A program made the translations under genes and the position numbers. The notes beneath the pieces were generated by a model, which saw only the letters and a list, made by a program, of their open reading frames with translations, was not told the origin of the DNA and made no database searches. From positions 1 through 35,338 of the IMG/VR virus record IMGVR_UViG_3300032282_000045: 35,338 nucleotides of DNA; one strand, given 5' to 3'. The stretch comes from a virus. Positions 6,001 to 35,337 of this stretch are shown in pieces; within the stretch, counting starts at the first letter, position 1, and the number at the start of each line of letters is the position of its first letter.

Positions 6001-9000
6001 TCTCAGCCTGAACAATGATCATGTGACGCTTGCGCTGGTCAATGAACTTCTTGTTGGCGTGTAAAGACAAACCAGTAGATCCGGCTTGGTTCAAGATCAA
6101 CACATCAACTGAGCCGTTGTTAAAGCCTTTAACAGCTTTAATGCGGTCAGATGTCTTGGAGCTTCTGGACGCCAGCAAAGGCTTACCAGTTGAGTAGTTC
6201 AGGGTTACTGTACGGCCAGTGATCTCATCGGTCTTAAATCCAGCCTTACGCAACTCATTGTGCATATAGTCAATTGGAGAGATAGGAGCCGAGCCAAAGC
6301 CGGCATTCTCTACAAAGTCACGAATAGAAGCGTACTGATCAACCAATTCTGGACCCAGATCTTCGTCAGTCAGGCGGTACTCTTCTACTGTTCCATCAGG
6401 TTTCTTAATCTTAATAACACGTTGCTTTTCCAAATAACGCAGATACAAGTCGCTGAACGACAGGTTCATTGGATCACCAACGTTGATACCCATCTCGTCA
6501 GCGTAACTCTGCAAGAATGAGCCCATGGTATTGGAGACAGTCATCACAACCTTCTCACCAGCCTTCAGGCGCTCGATGGCGTGGTTGACAGAGTCTTGTG
6601 CCTTCAATGACAACAGCATCTGGTCAATCAAGTTGTGCATGATCGAGCCAAAGTTTGCACTCTGGATCTGCGTCTTTTCGCCAGCCACACTGACCTTGCC
6701 GCCCTTGCGGTCCAAGTCCTTCTGCATATCCTTGACAACAACCTCTTTAGCGCGTGAGAACTTCAGGATTTCACGCATGGACTCAGCCATGTTCTCGGCT
6801 GTTTGCTTGTCTACTTTGGTCAGCTGAGTGTCGTATGACACCCCTGCAAAGGTACGCTCACGGCGAATGTACTGGCCAGCCTTGGTCAGCATATTGGCCA
6901 CAGTCTGCTGCATTGGGATGCCGCCTGACTTGATGGCTTCTGCCAATTCAGAAATGCTCTTGACGGCCAGCTTCATATCTGTGCTTGAGTACAGGTCCAT
7001 GACGTCTGGACGCTTGGCGTATGTGGCAGATGAGAAGAAAGTACCTCCGGCATTCTTCACCAGATTGCGGATAAATCCTGCGCGGCCTTGGATTTCCTGT
7101 TGTTCTTCACCACTCTTACGTCCACCACCAGATCCACCAGCGTTATGGCTCTCGTCAAAGATCATGTAGTTACCAGCACCGAAGTGCCTTACGAACTTCT
7201 GACGCTCAACTTCCTTACCCTTTTTACTCTGCATTTGATGGTAAGTTGTGAAGATAACCTTGTAGTGGCCAAGATCGTTACTGACCATCATTTCCTTCAT
7301 CAACTTAGCCACTTTTTGAACATCAGATGCTGGCGCGCGTAATGTCAGCTCAGTGGTAACAGTCTCACCCTTAACATTGCGAGACAGCTCATAAGGAACT
7401 TTCTCGGTTGCGTTGGTCATCAAGATCTTAGGTCTGGCTGTATCGAGCCCCAGCTCTTGCGTCATGCCAATATCATCCAAGTCTCGGATCATGTCAGCGA
7501 AAAGGTTAGGACGCTCAGTCAGGAAGATCGGGGTCTTGCCGTTAATCAAGGCGTACTTGATCATGGCGGCTACTACACGGCCTTTACCTACACCAGTCTG
7601 GTCGCCAATGATGAAACCTTTGCCAGTTTCAGCATTGCGAATGGCCATGGCCAAAGCATCTACTTGCTCAGCTGAGAAGCTATCACGCAGATCGTCAACG
7701 TCCATCTCTAGTGATTCAGCTACATAATCATCAATGTCACCAACTTCACTCTTGATCTTGTCAAGGGATTCTTTAATCGACTGATACATCGCACGGGGAG
7801 CCAATGTTCCCACTGCGTTAGCTTTAGACTCTGGCTCGTATGTAGCTTGGCCAGCAGTCTCTTGTTCTTGGTCAGCGCGTTTCTCTAGACTAGATCCGAG
7901 ACGCTCACCTGAGACGAGGCCAACTCCACCCACTCCGCTAGGCTGACGCTCTCCAGCGCCTCCTTTGCCGGCTGGCTTTCCTCCCTCACCCTTGCCGGAA
8001 ACTGGTTTTTCCTCTGGGCCACGTTTAGATTCGTCAGTAGGTCTAGGTTTCCCGTCACCAGTGACTCCCCCACTTGGTTCGCGTTGTCCACCTCCGGAAG
8101 TCCCAGCTTCCGACACGCTTGGTTTGCCGCCTCCAGAGGGTCTTCCTCCTTCAGTGCCAGCCACATCACTCGGTCTGCCAGCGCGTTCACCCAGTCCCGG
8201 CGCAGTAGGTCGCCCTTGGGCACCTTTACCGCTGTCAACTCCGGCGGCGCTACCATCTCCTGTGGATACCATGCGATCATTTAGTTTCTCCTTCAATTGT
8301 TCGTAAGATGTGATCAACTGAGGCAGATCAGCTGCCGGTAAATCACGCTTAGATTTGCCTACGCCATCAATGACAATGACGTCTACAGGGTACGTTGTGC
8401 CCTGCTTTGCATACATATTGCCGCCAGCTGTGAAGTGGTCAACAACGTTGTATTTGTTGTAGAGGTTGTAGTAGAACTCACGTTTAGCCTTACCGCGATA
8501 ACCCTCACGGCGGCCTTCCTCTGTATTAGCCTGTACACCACCCAAGATCAAGACAGCTTTGCCGTCATCTTTCATACCCTCAAGGGAGTGCATTGCAATA
8601 GCGTGGTCGATGTCGCTGATGTTGCCAGCCTTACCAAAAGGCGGGTTCTCAATCACAACGTCAAAGTCAGCACCCTTTACATTAGAGTCAAGCGCGTTCT
8701 CGTTGCCAATCTCAGAGCCTTCCAAGATACGGCTAAGCATCTCAAAGCGGTCTGCGTTCAGCTCATTGGCAATGATGTTGTCTTCGGACGCACCAATCAA
8801 CAGCATCCCGTTACCAGCTGTAGGCTCGTACACGACTGTGCTGTTATCAATACCGGCCAGCTCAGAGGCAATGAAAGCCAATGGTGCAGGGGTAGAGTAG
8901 GCTTGCTCAGCTACGCTTGTAGAACTGCGGCTACTGAGGTTTGGCTGGCGGTCATAGAGGTCTACCAACTGGTCAAAGATCTGTGCGCTTGTTAGCTCAT

Positions 9001-12000
9001 CTTTACGGCCTGCATCAACGATACTGCGAGCGGCCATGACTACACCAGACTCGATAGCCTCATCAGCCATCTTAGATTCGCGGGTGCCTGGCTTAATGTC
9101 TTGGCCAGTCATCTCGGAAATCATCTTGCGAGCTTGCGTGATGTCTCGGAAGTCACCATTGTTAAGGAAGAAATCAGAGATGTTCAGAGCAACCTCAAAC
9201 CTGTCGGACGCTCTGTTAATGTCCATGCCACCGGCTTCTTCGGGAGCCTCTTCTACAGCTTCCTCTGCTACAGCTTCTTCAGCAATATCTTCAATCTCTT
9301 CCATCGACTCAATGGCAATAACTTCCTTCTTGGAGCTCGCGCCTTGGTCTTGGTACTTGCCGGCCATACCGATGTAAGCACCTTGGAGCTGGTCGATATT
9401 GATCTCATCAGCAAAGTCATGTCCCAGCTTTGTGCGGATCAAGTCCATCACATAACGGGCGGCTTCTTTGAACTTGTAGTAACCCTTGCGGAATGCCGCA
9501 TCCATCAATGTGGTCAGGATAGGCATGAGCTTTTGCTCATCCTCTGGCATCATGTTCAAGCGTGTGCCTTTTGTGATCAGCATAGACAGATCACCCAAGG
9601 CTTGCTCAATGTCCTGATCTGCCTGTTCTATCTTGGCCTTATCAATGTTCTGAGCCTCAAGCGCTTTTTGCTTGTCAGCTATAGCCTTTTCACGCTCTTT
9701 GTTTGTGATGGCGTTGGCTTTGTCTACAGCGGCCTGAAGGATACGGGCATCCTCAGAACCAGAAGCGCGTTGCTCGTCTGTTAACTTCTGGTTAAGTTTG
9801 TACAGCTCCGACACAAAACGCTTACCCATACGGGTGAATTGAGGCTTCTTGTTGGGGGTGTAAATAATCCCCTGACCTTTCATCCACCCTTCAGCTCGGG
9901 GGTCAGTCTTGTTACCCTTTTTGAGCTTGTCAATAGTCTCCATCGCTGTGGCAAGCGAAGGCATTGGCGAGTAAATGCCAATCTTGTTCTTCTTCATGTG
10001 CTGATTGATCTCGTCCAACAGCTCATTTCTAGCTTTACTTCTTTCATCAGACTCAGCAAACTCTTTTGCTAAACGCTCTTTATCTGCGGCAGCTTCTGCG
10101 TCTTTACGCTTCTTGCGCTCTTCAGGAGTCAAGCTTTTTTCAGCCTTGGCTTTCTCTTTGGCAATCTCAAGAGGGCGGTCAGCTGTGTTGCTACGCACTA
10201 CGCGCTCAACAAAGTCTTTGAACTCTTTAGTGCCGGGTTTGCCGTCAAAGCGAACACCCAACGCTGAACGGAAACCAGTATCGCTGGCACCGGGGCCATA
10301 CATACTGAACTGCCATTCATTATCATAATCAAGCCAACGGTCCACATTGACATTGATCTCACCATAGCCAAAGTCAAAGCTATAGTCGTAATCAATAGGC
10401 TCTTTGCTGACGTTTTCTATTTTTCTAGATCCACCATCGCCGGTGTTTTGGTCAATTAGTTGGACATTGTTTTTACCAACACTAATTGCAATTTTAGGTT
10501 CTGGATCACCCTTCTCATAAACCAAGTCACCAATCTTGATGCCTTTACTGTTAGCTACCTCTTCAACTGGGTGTCGATAATTAGGGTTCTGTAATTCTTT
10601 TTCAACATCAGCTTCAGGGTTAGCCGCTTTAATCTTTTTGTAGATCTCAATGGCCTTTTTATCCAGCTCATCAGGTACAAATGGTTTGCCCCGTAACGCT
10701 TCTCCGGTCTTGGAGATATTAACTGTGGTAGATGGAGCTGTTATCTCAGCATCACGCTCTAGTCGGCTTCTGGCCTCTTCAACCATCCTCTTCGCGGATG
10801 TGTCAAAGTCACCAAACTCCATGTCATTTTCAACATCCTGATTGATCATCTTGAGCGCTTGCTCATAAGTCAATGGCTTTTGTTTTCTGTTTTCGCGGCT
10901 CTGGTTCTCCAGTACCAAGAACTCTTGGACTTTAGGATTGACAGCTGGCGCGGCAGGCGTAACGGGTGCGGCTGGAGTAACAACTGGTTTGGGAGCAACC
11001 TTGGGCTTATTGGCTTCAAGGAACTTATCAACGACTTCGTCTACCTGATCCATGCTCATGGACTTACGAGCTGGCATTGGCTCACCGCGCTGCATAGCTT
11101 CAAGAATATCCATGCCTTGAGAGTTCTTGTATGCTTCTTCGGCCTGCTTAATAGTGTCCATCAGACGCTGGCCCAGAGGTGTCGTGTTCTTACCTTGGAT
11201 AAGACCGTTCTCTGTCATCCATGTACGGGTTGCCTCTGGCAGTTTATCGGCAACACCTTGCCATCCATCAACGATGGCGTTGGCGATCTCAGGCGTACTT
11301 GGGCGCGTCTTGGCCGCTGGAGCTTCTGGCAGGGTTTCTTCAACTAACGCAGTAGATGGGGGTTGCTCTGTCGGAGCTTCAGCTACAGCAGGCTCTAAGG
11401 GTTTACCCACATTAACAGTGTTAATGTCAGCTTGGGTTGCGCCAAGTGCTTCATCAAGCATAGCTTGCAAATCTTGGGCTGGCGCTTCTTCGTCAATAGG
11501 TGCGGCAGGAGCTACCTCTTGGACAGGTTTTAAACTAGCTATGCCAGCTTCTGGAGCGGCAGGAGATACGGGTGCTACAGGGGTAGCTCCCTCGGCTGTA
11601 GCTGGTGGTTCTTGTGGATATATTGTCTTAAGAAGATCATCAAGCTCAGACATCTTTGCCTGAAGTTCTTGACGCTGTACATCCTGCTTTTCTTTTGTCC
11701 TGATGGCTTTATCTGCACCATAGACACGGCCAGCAGTAGTAGCCGCACCACCACCAATAGCACCAGCCGCTTCAGCTGCGGCGGCATTAAGGATTTTCTT
11801 AGCGTTTTCTTCAGTGAAATACTTATCAATCTCACCTTCACCAAAAGCGCCGGCAAGTTGAGTAGCTTCTTGAGCTCCACCAGTAATAAACTCTTCACCC
11901 ATGCCTTTGGGTATTTCTTTAATGCCGGCTTTGAGTGCTTGCTTACGAGTTTCGCCTTTGACAACTTCACCCAATCCACGTTTGGCCAATGTAGCGGCTG

Positions 12001-12865
12001 GGCCTAAGACTGAGTCCAAAGCACCGCTAACAATACCAACGGCCAATGATGTATCGCCAGTCTTTTTAACGTAGTCAATAACCATAGCCGCACGTTCATT
12101 AGGCGTGAGCTCTGGTGCATTCTTAATTTTCTCTTGGAGGAACTCTAGTCGGTTGCCTATAGCTTCTCCAGTTCCCATGCCTATACCAAGCGCGGCAACA
12201 CCAGCACCACCAGTTGTCGCGGCGGCAATCATGATTGGTGCTAGCTGTACGGCACCAGAGCCTACGTTGTAAGACAGCCAGTTGGCAAAGTCTTTAGCAC
12301 CTTCAACATCTGTTAAGTCTGTTGTGCGGCCTTTGTATTTTTGAGCATCCTTTTGGTACTGATCAACAGTGGTCATAGCCGCTTTGACAAAGTCAGTACG
12401 GCGGCCAATCTCACCAACATTACGCTCGCGCATCTTTTCGCGCATAGCCGGGTCTGACGCAAAGTAGGCGCGTCCTAGACCACTGGTTTCATCTAAACCA
12501 CGCAGTTGATCTGGGTTTGTTATTTGGCCAGTTTCAATCTTGTTAAATAGATCTTGACGCTGTTGAACAGTGCTCATGGCACCGATGTCTTTCATCAGGC
12601 CAGCATTTTCCCACATGGACTTCAAACCAATGACGCCAGCGCCAACGCCTTTGCTGAGCTCTTCGCCCATGGCTAACTCTGATGGAGGTTTTGGAATGCC
12701 GGGCTTTTGAAGCGATGCAATACCTTCTGATGGGGCACCAATGGCTCCCATAACTTGCTCTTCAGGGGAGAGCGTAGGCTCTGCTGGGGGCTTTGTCTTT
12801 AAGTATTCATCTGGGTTAAATGATGATGGTTTTTTAGCCAAATACGCATCAGGATCAAAAGCCAT
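41..12865 (-). CDS. Giant polyvalent phage protein: DNA methyltransferase + Strawberry-notch helicase + metallopeptidase + LPD38-like
   Basis: This 4274-aa protein is probably ejected with the DNA. Residues 3-10 and 16-23 repeat an F(D/N)PDxYL motif. Weakly hydrophobic stretches follow (about 205-240, 360-383), then a Pro/Ala linker (about 415-520) and charged helical segments. A class I methyltransferase core has motif I EPTAGNG at 1347 and NPPF at 1407-1410, typical of N6-adenine enzymes. A Gly/Pro-rich linker spans about 1532-1652. A superfamily 2 helicase of Strawberry-notch type has GVGKG around K1761, DESH at 1904-1907 and GRVHRTGQ around 2299. HEITH at 3206-3210 with E3283 in an EYWA context looks like a gluzincin zinc site. 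NFNRKG at about 3898 followed by a hydrophobic segment (about 3945-3970) resembles LPD38; the end is a charged coiled coil. The order methyltransferase-helicase recalls P1 DarB. The ATG follows the previous stop by one base, with AGGG upstream. The anti-restriction role is inferred; the motifs are seen. Confidence 0.9.
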   Translation of the reverse strand: MAFDPDAYLAKKPSSFNPDEYLKTKPPAEPTLSPEEQVMGAIGAPSEGIASLQKPGIPKPPSELAMGEELSKGVGAGVIGLKSMWENAGLMKDIGAMSTVQQRQDLFNKIETGQITNPDQLRGLDETSGLGRAYFASDPAMREKMRERNVGEIGRRTDFVKAAMTTVDQYQKDAQKYKGRTTDLTDVEGAKDFANWLSYNVGSGAVQLAPIMIAAATTGGAGVAALGIGMGTGEAIGNRLEFLQEKIKNAPELTPNERAAMVIDYVKKTGDTSLAVGIVSGALDSVLGPAATLAKRGLGEVVKGETRKQALKAGIKEIPKGMGEEFITGGAQEATQLAGAFGEGEIDKYFTEENAKKILNAAAAEAAGAIGGGAATTAGRVYGADKAIRTKEKQDVQRQELQAKMSELDDLLKTIYPQEPPATAEGATPVAPVSPAAPEAGIASLKPVQEVAPAAPIDEEAPAQDLQAMLDEALGATQADINTVNVGKPLEPAVAEAPTEQPPSTALVEETLPEAPAAKTRPSTPEIANAIVDGWQGVADKLPEATRTWMTENGLIQGKNTTPLGQRLMDTIKQAEEAYKNSQGMDILEAMQRGEPMPARKSMSMDQVDEVVDKFLEANKPKVAPKPVVTPAAPVTPAAPAVNPKVQEFLVLENQSRENRKQKPLTYEQALKMINQDVENDMEFGDFDTSAKRMVEEARSRLERDAEITAPSTTVNISKTGEALRGKPFVPDELDKKAIEIYKKIKAANPEADVEKELQNPNYRHPVEEVANSKGIKIGDLVYEKGDPEPKIAISVGKNNVQLIDQNTGDGGSRKIENVSKEPIDYDYSFDFGYGEINVNVDRWLDYDNEWQFSMYGPGASDTGFRSALGVRFDGKPGTKEFKDFVERVVRSNTADRPLEIAKEKAKAEKSLTPEERKKRKDAEAAADKERLAKEFAESDERSKARNELLDEINQHMKKNKIGIYSPMPSLATAMETIDKLKKGNKTDPRAEGWMKGQGIIYTPNKKPQFTRMGKRFVSELYKLNQKLTDEQRASGSEDARILQAAVDKANAITNKEREKAIADKQKALEAQNIDKAKIEQADQDIEQALGDLSMLITKGTRLNMMPEDEQKLMPILTTLMDAAFRKGYYKFKEAARYVMDLIRTKLGHDFADEINIDQLQGAYIGMAGKYQDQGASSKKEVIAIESMEEIEDIAEEAVAEEAVEEAPEEAGGMDINRASDRFEVALNISDFFLNNGDFRDITQARKMISEMTGQDIKPGTRESKMADEAIESGVVMAARSIVDAGRKDELTSAQIFDQLVDLYDRQPNLSSRSSTSVAEQAYSTPAPLAFIASELAGIDNSTVVYEPTAGNGMLLIGASEDNIIANELNADRFEMLSRILEGSEIGNENALDSNVKGADFDVVIENPPFGKAGNISDIDHAIAMHSLEGMKDDGKAVLILGGVQANTEEGRREGYRGKAKREFYYNLYNKYNVVDHFTAGGNMYAKQGTTYPVDVIVIDGVGKSKRDLPAADLPQLITSYEQLKEKLNDRMVSTGDGSAAGVDSGKGAQGRPTAPGLGERAGRPSDVAGTEGGRPSGGGKPSVSEAGTSGGGQREPSGGVTGDGKPRPTDESKRGPEEKPVSGKGEGGKPAGKGGAGERQPSGVGGVGLVSGERLGSSLEKRADQEQETAGQATYEPESKANAVGTLAPRAMYQSIKESLDKIKSEVGDIDDYVAESLEMDVDDLRDSFSAEQVDALAMAIRNAETGKGFIIGDQTGVGKGRVVAAMIKYALINGKTPIFLTERPNLFADMIRDLDDIGMTQELGLDTARPKILMTNATEKVPYELSRNVKGETVTTELTLRAPASDVQKVAKLMKEMMVSNDLGHYKVIFTTYHQMQSKKGKEVERQKFVRHFGAGNYMIFDESHNAGGSGGGRKSGEEQQEIQGRAGFIRNLVKNAGGTFFSSATYAKRPDVMDLYSSTDMKLAVKSISELAEAIKSGGIPMQQTVANMLTKAGQYIRRERTFAGVSYDTQLTKVDKQTAENMAESMREILKFSRAKEVVVKDMQKDLDRKGGKVSVAGEKTQIQSANFGSIMHNLIDQMLLSLKAQDSVNHAIERLKAGEKVVMTVSNTMGSFLQSYADEMGINVGDPMNLSFSDLYLRYLEKQRVIKIKKPDGTVEEYRLTDEDLGPELVDQYASIRDFVENAGFGSAPISPIDYMHNELRKAGFKTDEITGRTVTLNYSTGKPLLASRSSKTSDRIKAVKGFNNGSVDVLILNQAGSTGLSLHANKKFIDQRKRHMIIVQAEKNIDTHMQMLGRVHRTGQVIPPAYSQMMADIPAEMRPAANLLKKMASLNANTTASRKSAVTAEGAVDFMNDYGGQVMQEYLRDNPEVYEQLGGKAVIDIMEDPSEADEEDIRKVSGYIPILPIKVQEEVYKDIVDRYNDLIEREDSMGSNKLEAKAEDLDAITLSSKPITEAKDDPSVFAQPAFMERVDVKRRVKPYSKQEVQEQVKERLDKAGMTASQLSKDLFQKIFDKYKAYGTEKVADAVAAGADNAKVETIRNQLNSQYLQVKTILDNYPVGSPVQVKNKKGALFNGVVTDLQNKGRTKNPVAGSDWKMTIALADGEDKSTSLSFSQIGGVYEISERRDVNWLNPDTMQGEWMPMLDLFDKGATVRREKRWMVTGNILAGFAEVNNMGQIISYTKDDGTTGQGILMPRTFDFEKEQKNAPVRFKSMAEIDQFFREFGRGAMISTTDGALKIRSDGNGRFTYTTSSSKRQGGTYFLDRGLTEFTGDFYKTGSLMNATVYDEMKSDKAIKYLMQERQEPLIAFNNKDKAREMLAPKEPFVAPLANVAKLPPGRSPELTMAAQLVQAGEMTKEEYDALVNFYKPIKPLEKPLAPATEEQVYDALDKVKREKIDPEIMPGVEIGLRLDIPAFNRKGVYVVSIHSKGTKSGPGKVIGYSNVAKVRDVTFGLGNERSALKIAGGAAKDALQTIEGKYVETTPEKAFEEAQEAFNDPQWVQIGVDPTRHSYFYDKNTTQPVVAAQEVIQIGNMVLGKNVTYGSKENFLFSPGLETSINAYTDRDAMIEEYARLRQKRAYITEKFAKGQAGLTEQQMINEIDEIAKDLKDAIKDTKPKRTTAGNFFTDATKAWDAGVITDDVYDVIDRLYKKFPEVLEGLRFSVKQQPQNSMAAGEFFALPRIVRLYKGTTGTSNPETIRHEITHSLEQMMSLEAITALVEDWRKNVSAAIKAEKTTKGKEFFEAVLNFHASPSQEAYDAMIKAMPSMDYYQYVNPSEYWAVNAEPLMARKLGTGWDKFVLMARRLFEGLKYIFGFDNKRVVHKVFNDLMNARGERIRHNVLANYVSQMTMPLRNMVLNYKGGPGSLATWDAAPESTLRDFQYRVVDKHTDMRMVVKQIENQIDSLQDEHDPSLQETLFHSSKSTKTEDFIKNEMRPFIKKMDEMGVSMGEFEAYLHARHAGVRNKLIADRNPSIPDGGSGMFDDEIKEFFDDLNKYPEKKKQFEELAKTIDGWVEGTQDLLVDYGLETPETIQAWRDKLPGYVPLKRDPDELDYVNPSSGLGQGFGVRGSFSKLAAGSYKTVVDIVNNVALQREAAIIRGEKAKVGRALYALAIQNPNPNFWKVVNPDAIRNKKKLKEEMEGFGLTIEQANAIFAEPRTAMIDETTGLIRYRVNPALRNSPNVFPVRINGKDRYVFFNAGNPSALRMAEALKNMDANQLSDALSTVAEVTRLIAAMNTQYNPVFGAWNFARDVVGGTINLSSTEIADRKLQVLSGSMPAMRAIYTDLRNNKVSSPEQQMWIDLWKQFREIGGTTGYGEQFSRAKDKETLVQRELERLDHGNVRKAVDVTMNWLSDYNDTMENAVRLSAFKAGLEKGMSPQRAAALAKNLTVNFNRKGQMTANANALFAFFNARVQGTARMMEVMFQDKDGKITMTGVGKKIIAGGMLLGAIQAAVLAMAGFDGDEPPDFLKEKNIIIPTGGGKYLIVPMPLGWNLFPNIGRELTEYVLINNGGMKGRRSLTKTMTSIIGQVFDMFNPLGAGSPANFFTPTIADPIVSLYVNKDAFGRPISRENRETTPTPGWERSRDTATKLSKALAYGLNYITGGGEDGIGYVSPTADQLDYIAREYAGGVGREITKAVRFVGKLGTEDKIEPYQIPIAGKLYGETGSSSAIADSFYKNVKAMAEHEGAIKRIKERKGDVNDYRKENKEATVRLINRANYVENEVSKMNREIRALAKKEAPEKDIKAKKEKRDALMKAYNEEVRRGQ

Positions 12866-27858: not shown

Positions 27859-28641
27859 CTAATTCGTGTCGATCTGTGTCCATCCAGCACTCTGGACGTC
27901 ATTAATCTGTGTCCAGCCTGGAGACTGAACGTTGTTGATATTTTGCCAGTTTGCAGTCTGCGTGTCATCAATAATTTCCCACAAAGGCCGTCCCATTACT
28001 AAATCAGATATTGTCGCCAATTCAACCACAGAAGCCATGAATTGCGCTACCGCCGCATCAACATCTGACACCGTAGCAGACTCTGAAATAACACCGCTAA
28101 ATGTAACCCCAGCACTCACAGTCTCACTGCCTGTCGCTGTCTCGCTAACAGAAGCATTGACCGATGTATTTGCGTCTACGCTGTCAGTTCCTGTCGCTGT
28201 TTCAACAATAAACGCTAAGAACGTAAACGCTGAACTTGTTGCATCCGTGCCAGTTGCTGACTCAAGTATCTGACCCAAGAAATTAGCAAATGCCGCAGTG
28301 GAATCTGACCCAGTAGCAATCTCGCTAACTGATACCCCATATGTTGGGATGGCACTAATCGCATCACTACCTGTCGCTGACTCACTAACCGCAGTTCCAA
28401 ACGTTGCCGTTGCACTTATTGCGTCTGTACCTGTACTTGTCTCACTAACCGCCGCACCGAACGTAGACAGTGCACTAATAGCATCCGATCCTGTGGCAGT
28501 CTCACTGACCGCCGCCAGAACACTAACAACTGAAGAAGGGGCATCTGTCCCTGTCGCAGTTTCAGCAACACTCCGGTCATAGACTGAATCACCCCAGCCA
28601 GCCTGACCCCATGCGCCAGAACTCCAGCCGCCTTCAGCCAT
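27859..28641 (-). CDS. Repeat-built tail/fiber-associated protein
   Basis: A 260-aa protein made almost wholly of three kinds of repeat. Residues 6, 11 and 16 are Trp in a GxW five-residue pattern. From residue 25 to about 216 there are ten units of exactly 20 residues, consensus (V/I)SE(T/S)ATG(S/T)DAxSAxxTFxxA. Residues 221-257 hold Trp every 11 residues (221, 232, 243, 254) in W(T/Q)xI(N/D)(N/D)VQSxG. It has no Cys and few Lys. The design suggests a beta-solenoid or fibrous shaft piece, probably acting with the neighbouring fiber. The ATG has GAGG seven to ten bases upstream. I do not know a characterised family. Confidence 0.8.
   Translation of the reverse strand: MAEGGWSSGAWGQAGWGDSVYDRSVAETATGTDAPSSVVSVLAAVSETATGSDAISALSTFGAAVSETSTGTDAISATATFGTAVSESATGSDAISAIPTYGVSVSEIATGSDSTAAFANFLGQILESATGTDATSSAFTFLAFIVETATGTDSVDANTSVNASVSETATGSETVSAGVTFSGVISESATVSDVDAAVAQFMASVVELATISDLVMGRPLWEIIDDTQTANWQNINNVQSPGWTQINDVQSAGWTQIDTN
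27994..28569 (-). repeat. Ten tandem 60-bp coding repeats (20 aa each)
   Basis: The repeat positions are in exact register: Val or Ile at residues 25, 45, 65, 85, 105, 125, 145, 165, 185 and 205, each followed by (S/A/L/E/V)E(T/S/I/L)(A/S)T. Central copies are closest; the last two copies diverge. No indels break the 60-base period. Confidence 0.88.
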
Positions 28642-29653: not shown

Positions 29654-30489
29654 GATACAGACAACCTAACTTGTCCATCCCTGTACGCATCAGCACGTTG
29701 CTTACCGTCCGATAGATTTTTGTACAAAGCAATAGCTTGAACGTAACGACTTTGAGCAAGTTGAACCATATCTGTCTCACCCTTCATGTACATATACGCT
29801 TCGCAAATCGTACCGTACAAGAGCACAGAATCAAAGTTATCACCCAACCATGTAGTACCAGCAGTAACAATAGACTCAGGATAGTAGTTGTAATGAAGCT
29901 CTGCGTTGTAGGCGGCGGCAGGCGTAGGACCAACAATAAACGTTAACTCGTTTACATCGTCCGAGCGGGGACCAAAGATTGCATAGTGTTTAGGCTCACT
30001 TAACTGAGCTGTCAAAGGATATGCTTCACGAATGAAGTTCACATCTTTGTTAAGCAAATACAAATAGTCGCCTTGGAACACCACAGAGCCAGATACAGTT
30101 CCGACATTAACAGTTGTTAATGTGACCGTTGTTCCTGAAATGCTACGCACTTGAGCGTTAGTACCAATACCAGTACCTGTAACCTGTTGGTTTACAGCAA
30201 TACCTGTAGTACTTGCTACAACAATTGTTTTTTGACCGGCCGTACCAGTCGCAGTCGTAGTATTGTATGGATACACAGCAAGGCTATATACCGACAAGAA
30301 ATCAGATGGGCACTGAAGATACTTGTTGGCCGTAGTCAAAAAACCTGTCACATTCTTCCGCAAATTAGCAGGCTGCGCACTGTTATAAATGCGTTGCTCC
30401 GCTTGACGGATGAACGTATTCATGTCGTCAGTTGGGAATGAGTTCTCGCAGTAGTTGCTTACCTCAGTGACAAGCTGGGTGTAGTTCAT
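29650..30489 (-). CDS. Head-tail adaptor protein (SU10-adaptor-like) with inserted beta module
   Basis: A 279-aa protein. The N-terminal helical region (MNYTQLVTEVSNYCEN, FIRQAEQRIYN) and the C-terminal helices (LLYGTICEAYMYMKGETDM, AQSRYVQAIALYKNL) match the adaptor proteins that form the ring beneath the portal in podovirus-like phages. PSDFLSVYSL, FIREAYP, PKHYAIFGP and HYNYYPES are characteristic segments between. Residues about 77-139 (GQKTIVVASTTGIAVNQQV, GTTVTLTT) look like a separate beta module inserted into the adaptor core; most adaptors of this kind are shorter. ATGA overlaps link it on both sides. Family call is moderately sure. Confidence 0.75.
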   Translation of the reverse strand: MNYTQLVTEVSNYCENSFPTDDMNTFIRQAEQRIYNSAQPANLRKNVTGFLTTANKYLQCPSDFLSVYSLAVYPYNTTTATGTAGQKTIVVASTTGIAVNQQVTGTGIGTNAQVRSISGTTVTLTTVNVGTVSGSVVFQGDYLYLLNKDVNFIREAYPLTAQLSEPKHYAIFGPRSDDVNELTFIVGPTPAAAYNAELHYNYYPESIVTAGTTWLGDNFDSVLLYGTICEAYMYMKGETDMVQLAQSRYVQAIALYKNLSDGKQRADAYRDGQVRLSVS

Positions 30490-30749
30490 GCCATTGGGCC
30501 CCTTGACATAACACCTTTAGTAGCCGCACCAGTACCGCGCATCTTAATTCCAGACGTTTTAGGCTCACCACCAGAAGATTTATTGATGTTACCTACAGTC
30601 ATTTCAACTGTATCAGCACGGCTCATGTTTTTACCAGAGCCAGGATTCTCTTTAGGAGCAACCTTCTCGCCCTTCATAGTGTGTGGAGGAGCATAAACGC
30701 TGGCATTACCAACTTCTTTACCCATCATCATTTTGCTGTATTTAGCCAT
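30486..30749 (-). CDS. Small basic phage protein of unknown function
   Basis: An 87-aa Lys/Met/Gly-rich protein starting MAKYSKMMMGKEVGNASVYA, with SGKNMSRADTVEMT and a C-terminus KMRGTGAATKGVMSRGPMA. I chose the ATG at 30749, which has GAGG eight to eleven bases upstream; a GTG 39 bases earlier would overlap the previous gene heavily and is less likely. It is predicted to be largely disordered. The RGTGAATKG ending faintly recalls the GDGIA..GKT module of its neighbours. Its stop overlaps the adaptor ATG. Confidence 0.7.
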   Translation of the reverse strand: MAKYSKMMMGKEVGNASVYAPPHTMKGEKVAPKENPGSGKNMSRADTVEMTVGNINKSSGGEPKTSGIKMRGTGAATKGVMSRGPMA

Positions 30750-30750
30750 T

Positions 30751-30939
30751 TTAGCCTCGCTTTTGTGCTGCAATTTTTGCCAAACCACGGCCCATTTTCT
30801 TCATGTCAGCATTGGTTTTGCCAACATTACCATGTATGGGTCCAGTCTGAGTTTTTGCTTTGGGTCCGCTATTGCCCAAATTCTTGCCTTCGGTCTTGCC
30901 TTTTTTAGCGATGCCGTCTGCTGATCGTGTGTATGCCAT
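30751..30939 (-). CDS. 62-aa basic protein with N-terminal DGIA/GKT module
   Basis: A strongly basic Gly/Lys-rich 62-aa protein. Residues 6-18 read SADGIAKKGKTEG, the same module that ends three larger proteins encoded 2-3 kb upstream. The rest is Lys/Asn/Gly-rich, with MKKMGRGLAKIAAQKRG at the end, possibly nucleic-acid binding. The start has AGGAG overlapping the previous stop. No known family; disordered. Confidence 0.7.
   Translation of the reverse strand: MAYTRSADGIAKKGKTEGKNLGNSGPKAKTQTGPIHGNVGKTNADMKKMGRGLAKIAAQKRG
30886..30924 (-). repeat. GDGIA/GKT module, copy D (N-terminal)
   Basis: Encodes SADGIAKKGKTEG at residues 6-18 of the 62-aa protein, the only copy at an N-terminus. Confidence 0.75.
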
Positions 30940-30948
30940 GTTTAGCTC

Positions 30949-31338
30949 CTATGAAACTGTAATCGTTACTGTACCAACTTCTGCCGTTCCTACCAAGTAG
31001 TTTGGTGTTAAATATGTATCATATTCACTAGCACCACCAACTGGAAACCAACCCCATTGAATGTCCCGTGAGCCACCTGTTAAATTACCCGCCGTATTCA
31101 AACCAGCCGTCACATACGTTGTGTCTGGCCGTGGCTGATACAAAGCCTGTGGATCATTAACAGGATACATTCCCAATTGCAACTGCGGTTGATCTGGGTC
31201 CCAACAAGCATCACAAACTTTAAGCTGATAAAGCTTGGTCTTAATGACCTCCATCTTTAACTGCTTTAACTTGTAACGCTGGCCACACCGATCACATTCG
31301 GCAATAGCATATTTACCGGATGCAAACGGTGTTGTCAT
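30949..31338 (-). CDS. Zinc-ribbon-containing structural-operon protein
   Basis: A 129-aa protein with CDRC at residues 15-18 and CDAC at 42-45, the four-cysteine layout of a zinc ribbon. Between and around them are YKLKQLKMEVIKTKLYQLK basic strands. The C-terminal half is Pro/Gly/Thr-rich, with MYPVNDPQALYQPRPDTTYV and IQWGWFPVGG, and ends in short strands (EVGTVTITVS). Its start forms a TAATG overlap with the preceding connector-type gene. A zinc-binding module in this tail region could bind DNA or brace a connector ring; no function is known to me. Confidence 0.78.
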   Translation of the reverse strand: MTTPFASGKYAIAECDRCGQRYKLKQLKMEVIKTKLYQLKVCDACWDPDQPQLQLGMYPVNDPQALYQPRPDTTYVTAGLNTAGNLTGGSRDIQWGWFPVGGASEYDTYLTPNYLVGTAEVGTVTITVS

Positions 31339-32267
31339 TAAGAACCACCACCAATAAACGCTATACGAGGCACCAGCCTCAATGTAGCCTTCTCTCTATC
31401 TTCTTGAGCCGCCAAAGCATATTGCTCTTCATAGACGCTCTTTAACATATCCAAACGAGCCTGCAACTCAGGAACCTTCATCGCAATGTAGTACGCCAAC
31501 CCAGCCGCTACGGCAGGCAGGAAACGAAAATTCATGTCAGATGTCTGTACACCAGCGCCAGTGTCTTGAATACGGCGCATTCTGTAGTACACAAACTGGT
31601 AGGGCTGCGAGCCGTCTGGTGTTGGCCACACTGTAATAGCCGGCAACTGGGGCACAAACACAGCTGTACCATCAGCTTGAGCCGCCGCTGTTGTGTTGTT
31701 CTGGCCACGGAATACACCACCAAGTGTTAAACCGCTGATATAGGTGTAATAAATATCTTCTGTACCAAGACGAATAAAGCCTGATCCGGCTAATCCATCC
31801 ACCGCATTAAGCGTTATTGTTGTGGCCGTGGAGGTAATGGCTCCATCAAGAACTAAATCTGTTGGATTGGTTTCACCGGACAAACGCTGAATCCACACTT
31901 GGATTGGCCGGCCTTGAACCAATTTGTTAGGAATCGTGGCATAGGTGGAAACACTAATTCTCGTGATACTTAAGTCAGCCTGAGTAGATGCGTTGTTGGC
32001 TTGCGTCCGAATCACATGATCCAGTAAGTCAATCGTATCTGTAGGCAGTGCATAAGTAGCCAGACCCTGAACTAAGTTAATAGTCCCAGTCTCAATCGTC
32101 CACATATTGATGCCACGATTAGCCCACTCAATGGTCATCAGGTTGAGAGAGCGGCGAGCTGTGCGTAGGTCATAACCAGTACGCATCTCACGGCCAGCTC
32201 TCTCCCAAGCTTCTTCAGCAAGCTCAGTGAACTCAAGATTGAAGGAGCTAGTTCCTGTTGTGGTCAT
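31338..32267 (-). CDS. Head-tail connector/tail structural protein (putative)
   Basis: A 309-aa protein. The N-terminus (FTELAEEAWERAGREM, TARRSLNLMTIEWANRGINMWTIE) is a helical motif common in phage connector and tail proteins, followed by YALPTDTIDLLDHVIR. Residues about 140-205 form a beta module (TATTITLNAVDGL, EDIYYTYISG, GVFRGQNNTTAAAQ). The C-terminus, with PYQFVYYRMRRIQD and FRFLPAVAAGLAYYIAMKVPE then charged helices, resembles the ends of podovirus tubular or adaptor proteins. It lies two genes before the SU10-like adaptor, so it is probably a neck component. Overlaps the next start as TAATG. Confidence 0.72.
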   Translation of the reverse strand: MTTTGTSSFNLEFTELAEEAWERAGREMRTGYDLRTARRSLNLMTIEWANRGINMWTIETGTINLVQGLATYALPTDTIDLLDHVIRTQANNASTQADLSITRISVSTYATIPNKLVQGRPIQVWIQRLSGETNPTDLVLDGAITSTATTITLNAVDGLAGSGFIRLGTEDIYYTYISGLTLGGVFRGQNNTTAAAQADGTAVFVPQLPAITVWPTPDGSQPYQFVYYRMRRIQDTGAGVQTSDMNFRFLPAVAAGLAYYIAMKVPELQARLDMLKSVYEEQYALAAQEDREKATLRLVPRIAFIGGGS

Positions 32268-32512
32268 TTCTTAGCCGTCTTTGCAGAGTTAATAAACGCC
32301 TGTGCTGTAGGCGCACCTTTAGAACCAGGCTTACGCATTTTCTCTTTTGATCCAGCTGCGATACGTTTACGTTTGGCGTTAATGTTGGCATACAAACCAA
32401 CAGGACCGCCTTCTGCGTATTCAGTAAAGTCTGTGTCATCACGCCGTGCTTTACGGACACCCTTGGGCATCTTTGTAGCACGGATGGCTCCCATTCCACG
32501 GCTTGCCATCAT
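32264..32512 (-). CDS. Small Lys-rich phage protein, GSKE(K/R)MRKPG motif
   Basis: An 82-aa basic protein. The N-terminal half (MASRGMGAIRATKMPKG) is Met/Arg/Lys-rich; then YAEGGPVGLYANINAKRKRIAAGSKE leads to MRKPGSKGAPTAQAF, a pattern I recall from many small phage proteins in structural operons. Two adjacent ATG codons can start it; no strong ribosome binding site is visible, so reinitiation after the upstream stop three bases away is likely. Its stop overlaps the next ATG as ATGA. Function unknown. Confidence 0.75.
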   Translation of the reverse strand: MMASRGMGAIRATKMPKGVRKARRDDTDFTEYAEGGPVGLYANINAKRKRIAAGSKEKMRKPGSKGAPTAQAFINSAKTAKK

Positions 32513-32515
32513 GAT

Positions 32516-32827
32516 TTAACACATCTTTCCGCGCGTTTTACCACGCTGAGCAATACCATCACCACGGCTAGAAGCAGTCATACCGCCACCGGCTTTCTTA
32601 ACAACCTTCTTCTTAGGAGCAGCTGAACCGCCGTCTACATCTTGAGGTGGCTTACCCATCTCAGCTGTAAAAATGCCACGATTCATTTTGCGTTCATAGT
32701 CAGCCAGCTCTTTTGCCGTAGGGCCGCCTTGACCACCACGGCCGGCGCCAGCTTTTTCACGCTCTCTGTCTTCAAGCTCAAGCTCCATGTCAGTGGAACC
32801 TTTGTATGGGTAATCAATTTCAGGCAT
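32516..32827 (-). CDS. Charged protein with C-terminal GDGIAQRGKTRG module
   Basis: A 103-aa protein: an acidic N-terminal half (ELELEDREREKAGAGRGG), a middle Lys-rich stretch with KKKVVKKAGGG, and a final 16 residues RGDGIAQRGKTRGKMC. The same ending occurs in the 187-aa protein encoded upstream. The switch from an acidic body to a basic tail suggests a removable or docking tail. A strong AAGGAG precedes the ATG. No known family. Confidence 0.72.
   Translation of the reverse strand: MPEIDYPYKGSTDMELELEDREREKAGAGRGGQGGPTAKELADYERKMNRGIFTAEMGKPPQDVDGGSAAPKKKVVKKAGGGMTASSRGDGIAQRGKTRGKMC
32519..32566 (-). repeat. GDGIA/GKT module, copy A (C-terminal)
   Basis: Encodes RGDGIAQRGKTRGKMC at the end of the 103-aa protein. 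It is 14 of 16 residues identical to copy C at 33205-33252; the DNA copies differ at many third positions. Confidence 0.85.
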
Positions 32828-32836
32828 ATCAGCTCC

Positions 32837-33202
32837 TTAACACATTCCGCCGCGCTTCATTACAATTTGAGTGCCTTTGGTTTTGCCTTTAGTAGCAATA
32901 CCATCGGCCGATTTTGTGAAGCCACCTTTAGCAAGCTTAGTCATTGGCTGACCTTTGTGCAAACGGCCTTCGTGTTTGTTTACAGCCTTCTGCATCATGG
33001 ACTTATCCTGCTTCATGTCCATCTTCATGTCTGCTTTTGCGTCATCATGTTTCATATCGCCACCTTTAGAAAATTTACGGCCTTTGTCGGCCTCATTAAA
33101 ATCTTTGCCCACAGACATGGGCACTCCAACTTTCTTAGCAAACGATGGCGAATGTGCAATCGCAGCCATGAAATTGTGTTGAGCTTTACTCTTGCTTGGC
33201 AT
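32837..33202 (-). CDS. Basic phage protein with DGIA/GKTKG module near C-terminus
   Basis: A 121-aa protein. The N-terminus MPSKSKAQHNFMAAIAHSP with FAKKVGVPMSVGKDFNEADKG is a recurring one in small phage proteins, possibly a conserved unnamed family. The middle is an alternating Asp/Lys/Met segment (KADMKMDMKQDKSMMQK). Near the end is KSADGIATKGKTKG, then KRGGMC. The ATG overlaps the previous TAA as TAATG. Internal virion or DNA-associated roles are possible from its charge, but not shown. Confidence 0.75.
   Translation of the reverse strand: MPSKSKAQHNFMAAIAHSPSFAKKVGVPMSVGKDFNEADKGRKFSKGGDMKHDDAKADMKMDMKQDKSMMQKAVNKHEGRLHKGQPMTKLAKGGFTKSADGIATKGKTKGTQIVMKRGGMC
32873..32911 (-). repeat. 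GDGIA/GKT module, copy B (near C-terminus)
   Basis: Encodes SADGIATKGKTKG in the 121-aa protein, preceded by KGGFTK and followed at the end by RGGMC. Confidence 0.8.
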
Positions 33203-33765
33203 TACACCATTCTCCCACGAGTTTTGCCACGTTGGGCAATTCCATCACCACGGTTAGAAGCAGATTTAACTGTACCACCTCTTTTAAAAGTTTTAGGGCT
33301 TTCTTCTTCAGAATCCCTTCTAGCTTTATCCACTTCCATTTCTGATAACCTAGCTTTAGAATTTGGAGACAATTCAACTTTATCTCTTGTATTTACAAAT
33401 TTATCAACTAAATCACCAAGTCCTGATTTATCTACTATTTTTTTGCCGGCACCAGTTTTTTCATCAATGTAACGCCCAACTTCTGAGCCTATACCAAAAG
33501 CATTTCCCGCCAATCCTGCACGGCCCATAGAACGCAACATAGCACGACCAGCTGCATCACGTTGAGAAACATTTCCCATATAAGACTTACGGCGAGCTTC
33601 AGTTTGTGCCGGACTTTCATTGTTACTTCTTACAATACGATCAAGATCCGAATTTTGAGAAGCAACAACATCTTCCAATAAATTTGGTGTTATATCTTGA
33701 GCATTTGTTTGATTTGGAGAACGGTAGTTGTAACCTTCTTTAGCTGGCTTATTTAGGCGTCCCAT
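33202..33765 (-). CDS. Helical basic protein with C-terminal GDGIAQRGKTRG module
   Basis: A 187-aa protein. A polar N-terminus is followed by helical and Gly-rich segments (RKSYMGNVSQRDAAGRAMLR, GRAGLAGNAFGIGSEVGRYI) and a charged region with LSEMEVDKARRDSEEES. It closes with KRGGTVKSASNRGDGIA then QRGKTRGRMV. That tail is nearly identical to the one of the 103-aa protein two genes downstream. GGGAG overlaps the previous stop codon and serves the ATG. No known function. Confidence 0.72.
   Translation of the reverse strand: MGRLNKPAKEGYNYRSPNQTNAQDITPNLLEDVVASQNSDLDRIVRSNNESPAQTEARRKSYMGNVSQRDAAGRAMLRSMGRAGLAGNAFGIGSEVGRYIDEKTGAGKKIVDKSGLGDLVDKFVNTRDKVELSPNSKARLSEMEVDKARRDSEEESPKTFKRGGTVKSASNRGDGIAQRGKTRGRMV
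33205..33252 (-). repeat. GDGIA/GKT module, copy C (C-terminal)
   Basis: Encodes RGDGIAQRGKTRGRMV at the end of the 187-aa protein, preceded by a KRGGTVKSAS lead shared in style with the other copies. Confidence 0.85.
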
Positions 33766-33767
33766 TT

Positions 33768-34010
33768 TTATCTCCCTTGGCGAATAAGTTGGTCAATCTT
33801 TTCTTCAAGCTTGTTAAAGCGTTGGTCAATGTGACTTGAAATGCGATCAATTTCTGCTTGAGTAACGTTATCACGGGCAACCTCCTCACGGGTTTTGTTG
33901 AGCAATATGGTAATCCGAGCCAGCTCCCTGAACTTCTCATTCATCATGTACCCTAACAGCGATATTAACAGTGTTAATATGGCCGACCAAACAATGTTCA
34001 AATCTAGCAT
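33768..34010 (-). CDS. Small membrane protein with cytoplasmic or periplasmic coiled coil
   Basis: An 80-aa protein (ATG at 34010; a GTG at 34016 would add two residues). A transmembrane helix spans about residues 4-22 (LNIVWSAILTLLISLLGYM), followed by a long charged helix (EKFRELARITILLNKTREE, then IDRISSHIDQRFNKLEEKI) that is coiled-coil prone. This layout is found in small phage membrane proteins sometimes linked to lysis or spanin-like functions, but it is far from the lysis cassette here. The start overlaps the previous stop by seven bases. Confidence 0.72.
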   Translation of the reverse strand: MLDLNIVWSAILTLLISLLGYMMNEKFRELARITILLNKTREEVARDNVTQAEIDRISSHIDQRFNKLEEKIDQLIRQGR

Positions 34011-34249
34011 TTCCACTTCTTCAATGCTTTATTGATGCGTGAGTCTGGATCTTTTGCCGTTTTTTCGCTGGTTAACTTCTTCTTCATGCCGCCCATCCTC
34101 GCACAGAATGAGTCTTTGCGAGAGCCTCCTTCCGGCTGGGGAGGTTTCAAATTCATGCCTTGCTTTTTCGCGGAGGCGCGTCCCTTGGCATTCAAGCCAC
34201 CAGTCGGACTTTTTCCTTCTTTCCTTTGCCATGCTGGACTCTTAGCCAT
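34004..34249 (-). CDS. Small basic phage protein, DUF6321-like
   Basis: An 81-aa Lys-rich protein. It starts MAKSPAWQRKEGKSPTGGLN, then AKGRASAKKQG, and later has SFCARMGGMKKKLTSEKTAKDPDSRINKALKKWKC in one run of conserved character. This matches a small family of unknown function seen in many aquatic and T4-like phages, labelled DUF6321 as I recall. It overlaps the glycosyltransferase stop by eight bases. Its two Cys (49 and 81) are kept in the family I recall, but no fold is known to me. Confidence 0.8.
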   Translation of the reverse strand: MAKSPAWQRKEGKSPTGGLNAKGRASAKKQGMNLKPPQPEGGSRKDSFCARMGGMKKKLTSEKTAKDPDSRINKALKKWKC

Positions 34250-34979
34250 TTGCTACTTTCAGTTTGGACTTACGAACCATCTCTAACAATGGAATAACAA
34301 CTTCTTCTCTAAAGTTGTTTTCAAACGTATCCGTTCCAACGTGCGGCAAACTAATGTCCACATCAATGTAAATCTTGTATCCGTGCTCGCGAGCTCTGTC
34401 GCAGAACAAGTAATCTTCGCCTACATACTTTCCGTCTTTTAACGCAAAGTCAAACAGCGCGGTGATCTGTTCACCCTTGAATTCATACGTCCAGTCTGAA
34501 TGGGCTTTTACCATATCTTCTAAGACATGACGCTGGATCAACATGAACCCAGTTCCTACACGCTCTACGCGCATGAGAGAGCCATCAAACTCTAGGTCTT
34601 GGTTCTCATCAAAATAGAGATCGGCAAAGAAGTAACGGTCTTTTGCTCTACGTGGGTAGGCTCCGGCCGTAATGTCTTTGCCTGAACTCTGAGCCATCAA
34701 ACGAAGAATATCGTCTGGTGTGGCAATAACATCGGAATCAACAAACAACATCTCTGTGCAATCTGACTTAAGGAACTCATGCACCAATTGGTTTCTGGCC
34801 ATAGTGATAATTGAGCACCCAGACACATCGCCCATATTAACGGCAACACCAAACTGCATAGCCTTGGGCATTAAAGCCGCAAGGTTGTACGCAGTCTTGA
34901 TATTGATCTTGCCGTCATAGGCTGGGATCGCAATAAATAATTTGCGGCCAGACAGAACTGCTTGTTTAGCTTCAGCCAT
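34242..34979 (-). CDS. GT-A glycosyltransferase
   Basis: A 245-aa nucleotide-sugar-dependent glycosyltransferase. KLFIAIPAYDGKI at 13-25 is the N-terminal strand and loop that binds nucleotide; MLFVDSDV at 77-84 carries the D81-S-D83 metal-binding motif; GEDYLF at 187-192 supplies the typical acidic catalytic-region residues; and LPHVG at 211-215 has the conserved His. No membrane segment is visible, so it is soluble. I chose the ATG at 34979; a TTG 21 bases earlier also fits and neither has a clear ribosome site. It overlaps both neighbours, placing it inside the structural operon, so it may glycosylate a virion protein or host surface. Substrate cannot be read. Confidence 0.85.
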   Translation of the reverse strand: MAEAKQAVLSGRKLFIAIPAYDGKINIKTAYNLAALMPKAMQFGVAVNMGDVSGCSIITMARNQLVHEFLKSDCTEMLFVDSDVIATPDDILRLMAQSSGKDITAGAYPRRAKDRYFFADLYFDENQDLEFDGSLMRVERVGTGFMLIQRHVLEDMVKAHSDWTYEFKGEQITALFDFALKDGKYVGEDYLFCDRAREHGYKIYIDVDISLPHVGTDTFENNFREEVVIPLLEMVRKSKLKVANG

Positions 34980-35337
34980 AGTAAATCTGCGTTGAATCAA
35001 TATTGGTCATCAGTGCATAAATGCCTTGAGTAGCTAATACTCCTTCGCCCGGAATAATGGGTGCATTACTAAAGGTATCAGTACTGTCTATTTCGTAAGT
35101 CATTAGCCACCGACCACCGCCACTTACATACGAAGCCGCAGTAGAAGTGATAGTGCCAGTGTTAATGTCTGTTAGCGTAAATGTACTTGACGAAGCAACA
35201 GTAATAACATAGTTGCCGTCTGTTGCCGACTGACTTGTGTTGCTGTCAAAGTGAATACCAACAACATTGCCCGTAGACAGGCCGTGAGCAGTTTTTGTTA
35301 CCGTTACAGTTGTACCAGAACGAGCGTAGGTAACGCT
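34972..35337 (-). CDS. C-terminal part of a beta-rich virion protein (cut by window edge)
   Basis: The open frame enters from the right edge and gives 121 residues before a TGA. It contains TVTVTKTAHGLSTGNVVGI, GNYVITVASSSTFTLTD and GGGRWLMTYEIDST, then PIIPGEGVLATQGIYALM. The first part is a beta module with HGL, DGNY and STFTL landmarks, similar to the insert in the gp10-like protein. The true start is outside the window. It overlaps the glycosyltransferase by eight bases. Structural role is inferred from style and position. Confidence 0.7.
   Translation of the reverse strand, partial: SVTYARSGTTVTVTKTAHGLSTGNVVGIHFDSNTSQSATDGNYVITVASSSTFTLTDINTGTITSTAASYVSGGGRWLMTYEIDSTDTFSNAPIIPGEGVLATQGIYALMTNIDSTQIYYG

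Follow-up and report, generated by a model that had tools for sequence, protein, structure and literature searches.

Why should small proteins with unrelated bodies, encoded side by side in one phage genome, carry the same short peptide? The question is raised by IMG/VR virus record IMGVR_UViG_3300032282_000045, which represents an aquatic phage and was analyzed over its full 35,338 bases, here called the window. A sequence-only reading of this DNA had pointed out a GDGIA-x-x-GKT-x-G module in four different small proteins, at or near the C-terminus in three and at the N-terminus in one, and had likened it to a transferable tag that might serve capsid loading, DNA binding or recognition by a phage protease. 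We find that the module belongs to a conserved, mostly C-terminal tag that is confined to one lineage of head-assembly genes and occurs in two genome-specific dialects, A and B. The explanation we favor, to which we assign an even chance, is that of a modular, genome-matched address tag that loads small proteins into the procapsid or virion.

A terminal tag on unrelated proteins

All four copies were verified on the minus strand, in tightly spaced small genes, and a search of the whole window returned no further copy of the module. T187 (187 residues, open reading frame (ORF) 33202-33765, ending SNRGDGIAQRGKTRGRMV) carries the C-terminal dialect-A tag RGDGIAQRGKTRGRMV at 33205..33252, reaching the stop codon, and T103 (103 residues, ORF 32516-32827, ending SSRGDGIAQRGKTRGKMC) carries the C-terminal dialect-A tag RGDGIAQRGKTRGKMC at 32519..32566. 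The copy of T121 (121 residues, ORF 32837-33202), SADGIATKGKTKG at 32873..32911, lies near the C-terminus within the tag region SADGIATKGKTKGTQIVMKRGGMC that ends the protein; it is followed by the extension TQIVMKRGGMC and belongs to an extended class with 10-14 residues before the stop. The N-terminal copy, SADGIAKKGKTEG at 30886..30924, is that of T62 (62 residues, ORF 30751-30939, beginning MAYTRSADGIAKKGKTEG), a recurrent gene with 41 relatives in 41 loci that lies between the genes of a CxxC protein and of S100. The finer details given by the sequence-only reading also hold: KGG, AGG or RGG stands before all three C-terminal copies, where (K/A)GG had been reported as frequent, and GRMV and GKMC are the two endings of the form G(K/R)M(C/V). 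A fifth, variant element was overlooked. It lies at the C-terminus of S100 (ORF 30486-30788, minus strand), which adjoins T62 and ends TSGIKMRGTGAATKGVMSRGPMA, also written GIKMRGTGAATKGVMSRGPMA; the element itself, GIKMRGTGAATKG at 30513..30563 on the minus strand, stands between the two dialects in sequence. Of the dialect-A genomes searched, nearly all have one copy of it, and some dialect-B genomes have a tagged gene in the same slot. Gene starts are mechanical throughout, and the marker profiles used below were built in this analysis.

The dialect-A consensus reads KKGG-x-V-x-SAS-x-RADG(I/C)A-xx-GKT(K/R)G(K/R)-h-(V/C)-stop. The D, G, A, G, K, T and G positions show 97-100% conservation across 262 copies, K or R stands before GKT, and the upstream consensus includes GG and SAS-x-R(A/G). 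In 164 of the 262 (62%), the last G is followed by exactly three residues and then the stop codon; a second class bears the 10-14-residue extension, frequently finishing GG-x-C, and only about 6% of copies are N-terminal. A degenerate DNA pattern of DGIAx(K/R)GKTxG matched at least 120 IMG/VR viral contigs, which is a lower bound, like that for dialect B below, and many of these contigs are short. Since a permuted-codon control of equal degeneracy had 0 matches in IMG/VR, and the dialect-A pattern matched 3 contigs in 257 Gb of bacterial and archaeal genomes, its occurrence is not due to chance; two of the three cellular contigs hold the same phage head module. The pattern search proposed by the sequence-only reading thus finds the module in other phages.

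What is conserved is the peptide. Identical residues use the same codon in 47% of cases within a locus and in 43% between genomes, and therefore the peptide is conserved and the DNA is not, as had been suspected from the diverged copies of the window. Within orthologous families, tag identity is 73-97%, against 26-68% for the bodies.

Clustering of 403 tagged proteins by their bodies, the tag being masked, gave 126 clusters, and a genome holds 1 to 6 tagged genes. The tagged bodies of the window, described earlier as unrelated, have no common sequence by eye, and their relatives belong to separate body clusters. DUF6321 is tagged in some genomes and untagged in others: its gene in the window, a landmark at 34004..34249 (minus strand), lacks the tag, which is present in the relatives L061, L113, L214 and L219. 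The number of body clusters, the fixed distance to the stop, the two states of DUF6321 and the occurrence of related bodies with either dialect strongly support the idea of a transferable tag.

Neither the tag nor most bodies correspond to known families. For dialect A no PHROGs or PDB match was found, and for dialect B no PDB match; scans of the bodies against Pfam, PHROGs and PADLOC returned body families or marginal matches only, and no library model covers the tag. Among 70 body representatives, Pfam matches were limited to DUF6321 and marginal ones, and PADLOC gave nothing; the body of T187 has no PHROG or Pfam match, and its function is unassigned. DUF6321 (PF19846), the MPSKSKAQ domain (phrog_16759) and other families of these slots are neighbors or bodies of the tag, occur tagged or not, and are thus body families only. 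A tblastn search of annotated phages with the tag peptide alone found nothing, which is weak evidence, as such searches miss short divergent tags and masked low-complexity stretches (one regained 41% of its own source). A literature search of open-license papers found no described tag of this type.

The commonest body domain is the N-terminal domain of T121, MPSKSKAQHNFM, which has 77% identity over 43 residues to phiKZ gp165.1 (NC_004629 171676-171804) and is related to the N-termini of proteins of the jumbo phages GAP32 and RaK2 annotated as virion structural. A domain of this type also lies upstream of the capsid gene in BUCT555. The kinship to annotated virion proteins would lend indirect backing to a virion link. 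A resemblance between this domain and the C-terminus of the scaffold (hhalign probability 52% over 13 columns) was not accepted. Separately, an EF-hand-like segment, DLTGDGK(V/I)T(R/K)xD(I/V)L, was seen in tagged proteins of both dialects (L287, L305, L007, L036).

One head-gene lineage, two dialects

In whole records, the dialect-A tags of a genome are all grouped in a single stretch of about 5 kb or less. When 14 diverse genomes were mapped, some of them with small genes missing or with a record that spans part of the block, one common order emerged from TerL through the tail: TerL, portal, GroES, scaffold, two genes, major capsid protein, cement, (glycosyltransferase) and DUF6321, then a protein with one transmembrane (TM) segment, the tagged variable genes, S82, an SU10-type adaptor and the CxxC protein, and finally the 62-residue gene, S100, a second adaptor and the tail. 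The capsid protein of this lineage is PF25209. In the window, the SU10-type head-tail adaptor gene (31338..32267, minus strand; PF24175, E 5e-6) borders the tagged cluster as a landmark of the head module, and T187 occupies the variable slot that runs from the one-TM gene to S82 and the adaptor. The CxxC protein, between the adaptor and T62 (129 residues, 30949-31338, minus strand), contains the pairs CDRC and CDAC, is found in nearly all relatives and has no clear Pfam family.

Markers were made from the annotated relatives DSL-LC04, 023Pt, CRP-901, HTVC023P, Pag-Yong1, HTVC027P and ct7L0027. Among the matches listed, the DNA pattern alone identified 123 loci, of which 119 carry at least one of eight strict module markers; the dialect-A tag is therefore tied to one head-gene lineage, that of a group of freshwater and marine tailed phages. 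Four loci are devoid of markers: two are fragments shorter than 2 kb, one is L079, whose genome does hold the head module, and one is L124, a contig from a Myxococcales metagenome-assembled genome (MAG) in which the match is probably due to chance. The tagged genes occupy accessory slots inside the head module; in the Planktothrix isolate Pag-Yong1, a single dialect-A tag, that of UMO75986.1, lies next to the portal-adaptor gene.

A scan of isolates for looser forms of the tag revealed dialect B, with consensus RGxGAAxRGxxFxGxx-stop, which ends two proteins of Pelagibacter phage HTVC023P (RGGGAAVRGMGFKGVF and RGVGAAIRGHKFIGVK). In this phage, gp32, gp51 and gp53 bear dialect B or a weak form of it. 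Its pattern matched at least 120 stretches and the permuted control 0. Among the 120 matches listed, markers were found for portal in 92, GroES in 59, scaffold in 54, TerL in 51, capsid protein in 40 and adaptor in 29: dialect-B loci belong to the same head-gene lineage as those of dialect A. Their tagged genes lie between TerL and portal, portal and GroES, cement and adaptor, or CxxC protein and second adaptor. In a neighbor of a dialect-B gene (L346, 2955-3317), the end AVRGSGCCTKVKKCKMY may be a further or decayed form of the tag.

The dialects are specific to genomes. None of the B-pattern loci listed contains both, and none of the A-pattern loci listed contains a strict B tag. Over whole records, the dialect-A profile had one weak match in 14 B genomes, and the dialect-B profile had a single weak match in each A genome, nearly always S100, save for two records with none. 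On the capsid-protein tree dialect changes are few (4 for dialect A, against a mean of about 25 when shuffled). Comparison of the two profiles aligned 11 columns (E 0.0013, probability 18%); what suggests common descent of A and B is not that score but synteny, together with the shared bodies. The shared bodies comprise related segments found with either dialect, namely the MPSxSKxQ domain, DLTGDGKVTRKDIL, KLPxxVRNKMGY, VTNPKQAIAIG and VTKEELEKSGMSLRDFL, and in each case the dialect is that of the host genome: related bodies have been re-tagged to fit. In one 6.1-kb contig (L241), whose partner genes are only partly comparable, the capsid protein, scaffold, DUF6321 and 121-residue-type gene are of the A type, yet its two tagged proteins both have dialect-B ends. 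This suggests that dialect is not determined by the capsid protein alone. Tags on different bodies within a genome are also more alike than expected (similarity 0.742, against 0.691 when permuted; standard deviation 0.012; 0 of 500). Such likeness, together with the re-tagging of bodies, is what would be expected of an address read by a genome-specific partner.

Proposed loading into the head and rival readings

Of the three functions proposed by the sequence-only reading, capsid loading fits best, because the tag occurs in a single lineage of head genes and, there, in slots of the head module. A maturation protease site is less likely, because the three residues before the stop leave almost nothing to remove, an objection that would not apply if the whole tag were cut off; in the 14 maps no protease gene was recognized between portal and adaptor, where several small genes are unassigned. 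DNA binding keeps a smaller share of probability, discussed below.

We picture the tag as a short linear address, usually the last ~25 residues of the protein, which this phage lineage would add to a changing set of small, lysine- and glycine-rich proteins, probably disordered, whose genes fill accessory slots of the head-assembly block. The tag would dock on a conserved component of the procapsid, the scaffold, the capsid lattice or the portal being candidates, and thereby bring proteins with unrelated bodies into the particle, where this cargo may neutralize or condense DNA or pass to the next host. A docking peptide is preferred because the tag is restricted to head slots and to one lineage, its C-terminal register is fixed, and the bodies are variable and basic. 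The entry of the proteins into virions, the location of the partner in the procapsid and the roles of the bodies are what we infer from sequence.

Known systems offer partial parallels. The capsid-targeting sequence (CTS) of phage T4 is N-terminal and is cut off by the prohead protease. The T4 internal proteins IPI, IPII and IPIII, which have only a CTS in common, enter the prohead core and are later injected (PMC3012670). Both systems combine varied small basic proteins with one short common sequence, and in both a single phage has several with unrelated, variable bodies; unlike the CTS, the tag is C-terminal at a fixed distance from the stop and has two genome-specific dialects. In phage P1, the N-terminal 30 residues of DarB suffice to load a reporter into the head, and Dar N-termini yielded no consensus (PMC9024508). 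A short terminal sequence that loads an unrelated protein into the capsid would be the shared feature, whereas the signal of the Dar proteins is N-terminal and lacks a consensus and that of the tag is near invariant. By analogy, the tag would most likely act like the T4 and P1 sequences, yet not be homologous to them. Encapsulin cargo-loading peptides are C-terminal, movable among cargoes and dock inside an HK97-fold shell. The tag is likewise C-terminal, its lineage has a PF25209 capsid protein, and it may dock in a comparable way, but encapsulins are cellular compartments without DNA.

Several observations weigh against loading into the head. Capsid-targeting sequences known so far are N-terminal, and T62 has the module at its N-terminus. 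The related isolates DSL-LC04, CRP-901, 023Pt and HTVC027P match neither tag profile, so the tagged proteins are dispensable. No body matches a known anti-defense family in PADLOC, which leaves a cargo role unsupported, and the virion structural label of the T121 relatives is a record annotation. The tag is, moreover, strongly basic and glycine-rich, and might bind nucleic acid with no protein partner.

This last point leads to the reading of the tag as a basic R/K-G tail binding nucleic acid, the proteins being late aids to DNA condensation or packaging with no protein receptor. With a median pI of 10.2 the tagged proteins are indeed basic, K, G and A are abundant in them, 98% of bodies carry net positive charge, and the tag is itself rich in R, K and G. 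In an AlphaFold2 model of T121, with helices at residues 6-39 and a lower-confidence helix at 56-81, the tag region has no secondary structure and a confidence score (pLDDT) of about 55; a fold search with this low-confidence model found no significant match. A generic tail, however, would need neither near-invariant D, I/C, A and T residues and a fixed stop distance nor genome-matched dialects and a single head-gene lineage, and we regard this reading as unlikely. Somewhat harder to sustain is a structural attachment motif of minor outer head or neck proteins, such as decoration or head-tail joint proteins, instead of a signal for internal cargo. It would suit slots between cement and adaptor and beside the portal and adaptor genes, as well as the recurrence of S100 and T62 between the adaptor and the second adaptor; against it stand hypervariable bodies, mostly with no detected domain, a tagged set that varies in number among genomes, and related isolates that match neither profile.

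That the common end is a by-product of gene shuffling, through a conserved 3' segment favoring cassette recombination, is improbable. Accessory cassettes are alike only at their ends, and the tags of one genome resemble each other slightly more, but synonymous sites are nearly randomized, so that the DNA is not conserved, which already weakens this reading; the N-terminal copy of T62 does not fit it, nor does a tag conserved above the body in orthologs. We consider about as improbable a signal directed at a host protease, ribosome or membrane and borne by late host-takeover proteins. The C-terminus is a typical place of degradation or sorting signals, yet the tag is bound to a phage head-gene lineage, and its genes lie in the head block, not among replication genes. 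Since one Planktothrix phage, one Pelagibacter phage and contigs binned with MAGs of Chitinophagales and of Gammaproteobacteria are among the records with a tag of one dialect or the other, no single host factor is obvious. Finally, GIAQRGKT formally satisfies the Walker A pattern [AG]-x(4)-G-K-[ST], but a nucleotide-binding P-loop is rejected: the T121 model has no P-loop fold or beta-loop-helix arrangement, its tag being low-confidence, unstructured and chain-terminal, no Pfam or PDB family matches, and dialect B lacks GKT.

Returning to the loading of proteins into the head, we tentatively extend it to an undescribed, virus-specific C-terminal sorting code, possible rather than probable, in which genome-specific dialects would load an open-ended set of horizontally exchanged small proteins, re-tagged upon acquisition, in a lineage that would include HTVC023P-type pelagiphages. 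A capsid-loading signal of this kind would be among the very few recognizable by sequence alone; with it, proteins could be brought into phage heads by means of a short C-terminal tag, and injected proteins could be recognized in metagenomes. Under another mechanism too, a C-terminal code that is specific to one lineage and has two exchangeable dialects makes a clear and testable phenomenon.

Other genes of the window

Polyvalent proteins are thought to enter the cell along with phage DNA. One of 4274 residues is encoded at 41-12865 (minus strand), with LPD38, AAA_34 and Strawberry-notch-type helicase C-terminal domains and no copy of the tag. Among the structural genes, 27859-28641 (minus strand) encodes a 260-residue protein composed mostly of imperfect SE(T/S)ATG(T/S)DA repeats. 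A glycosyltransferase-like gene lies within the head block at 34242-35000 (minus strand; phrog_1574, and weakly phrog_34859); in L211, L215 and L220, among other genomes, a relative is found between the cement gene and the tagged ones.

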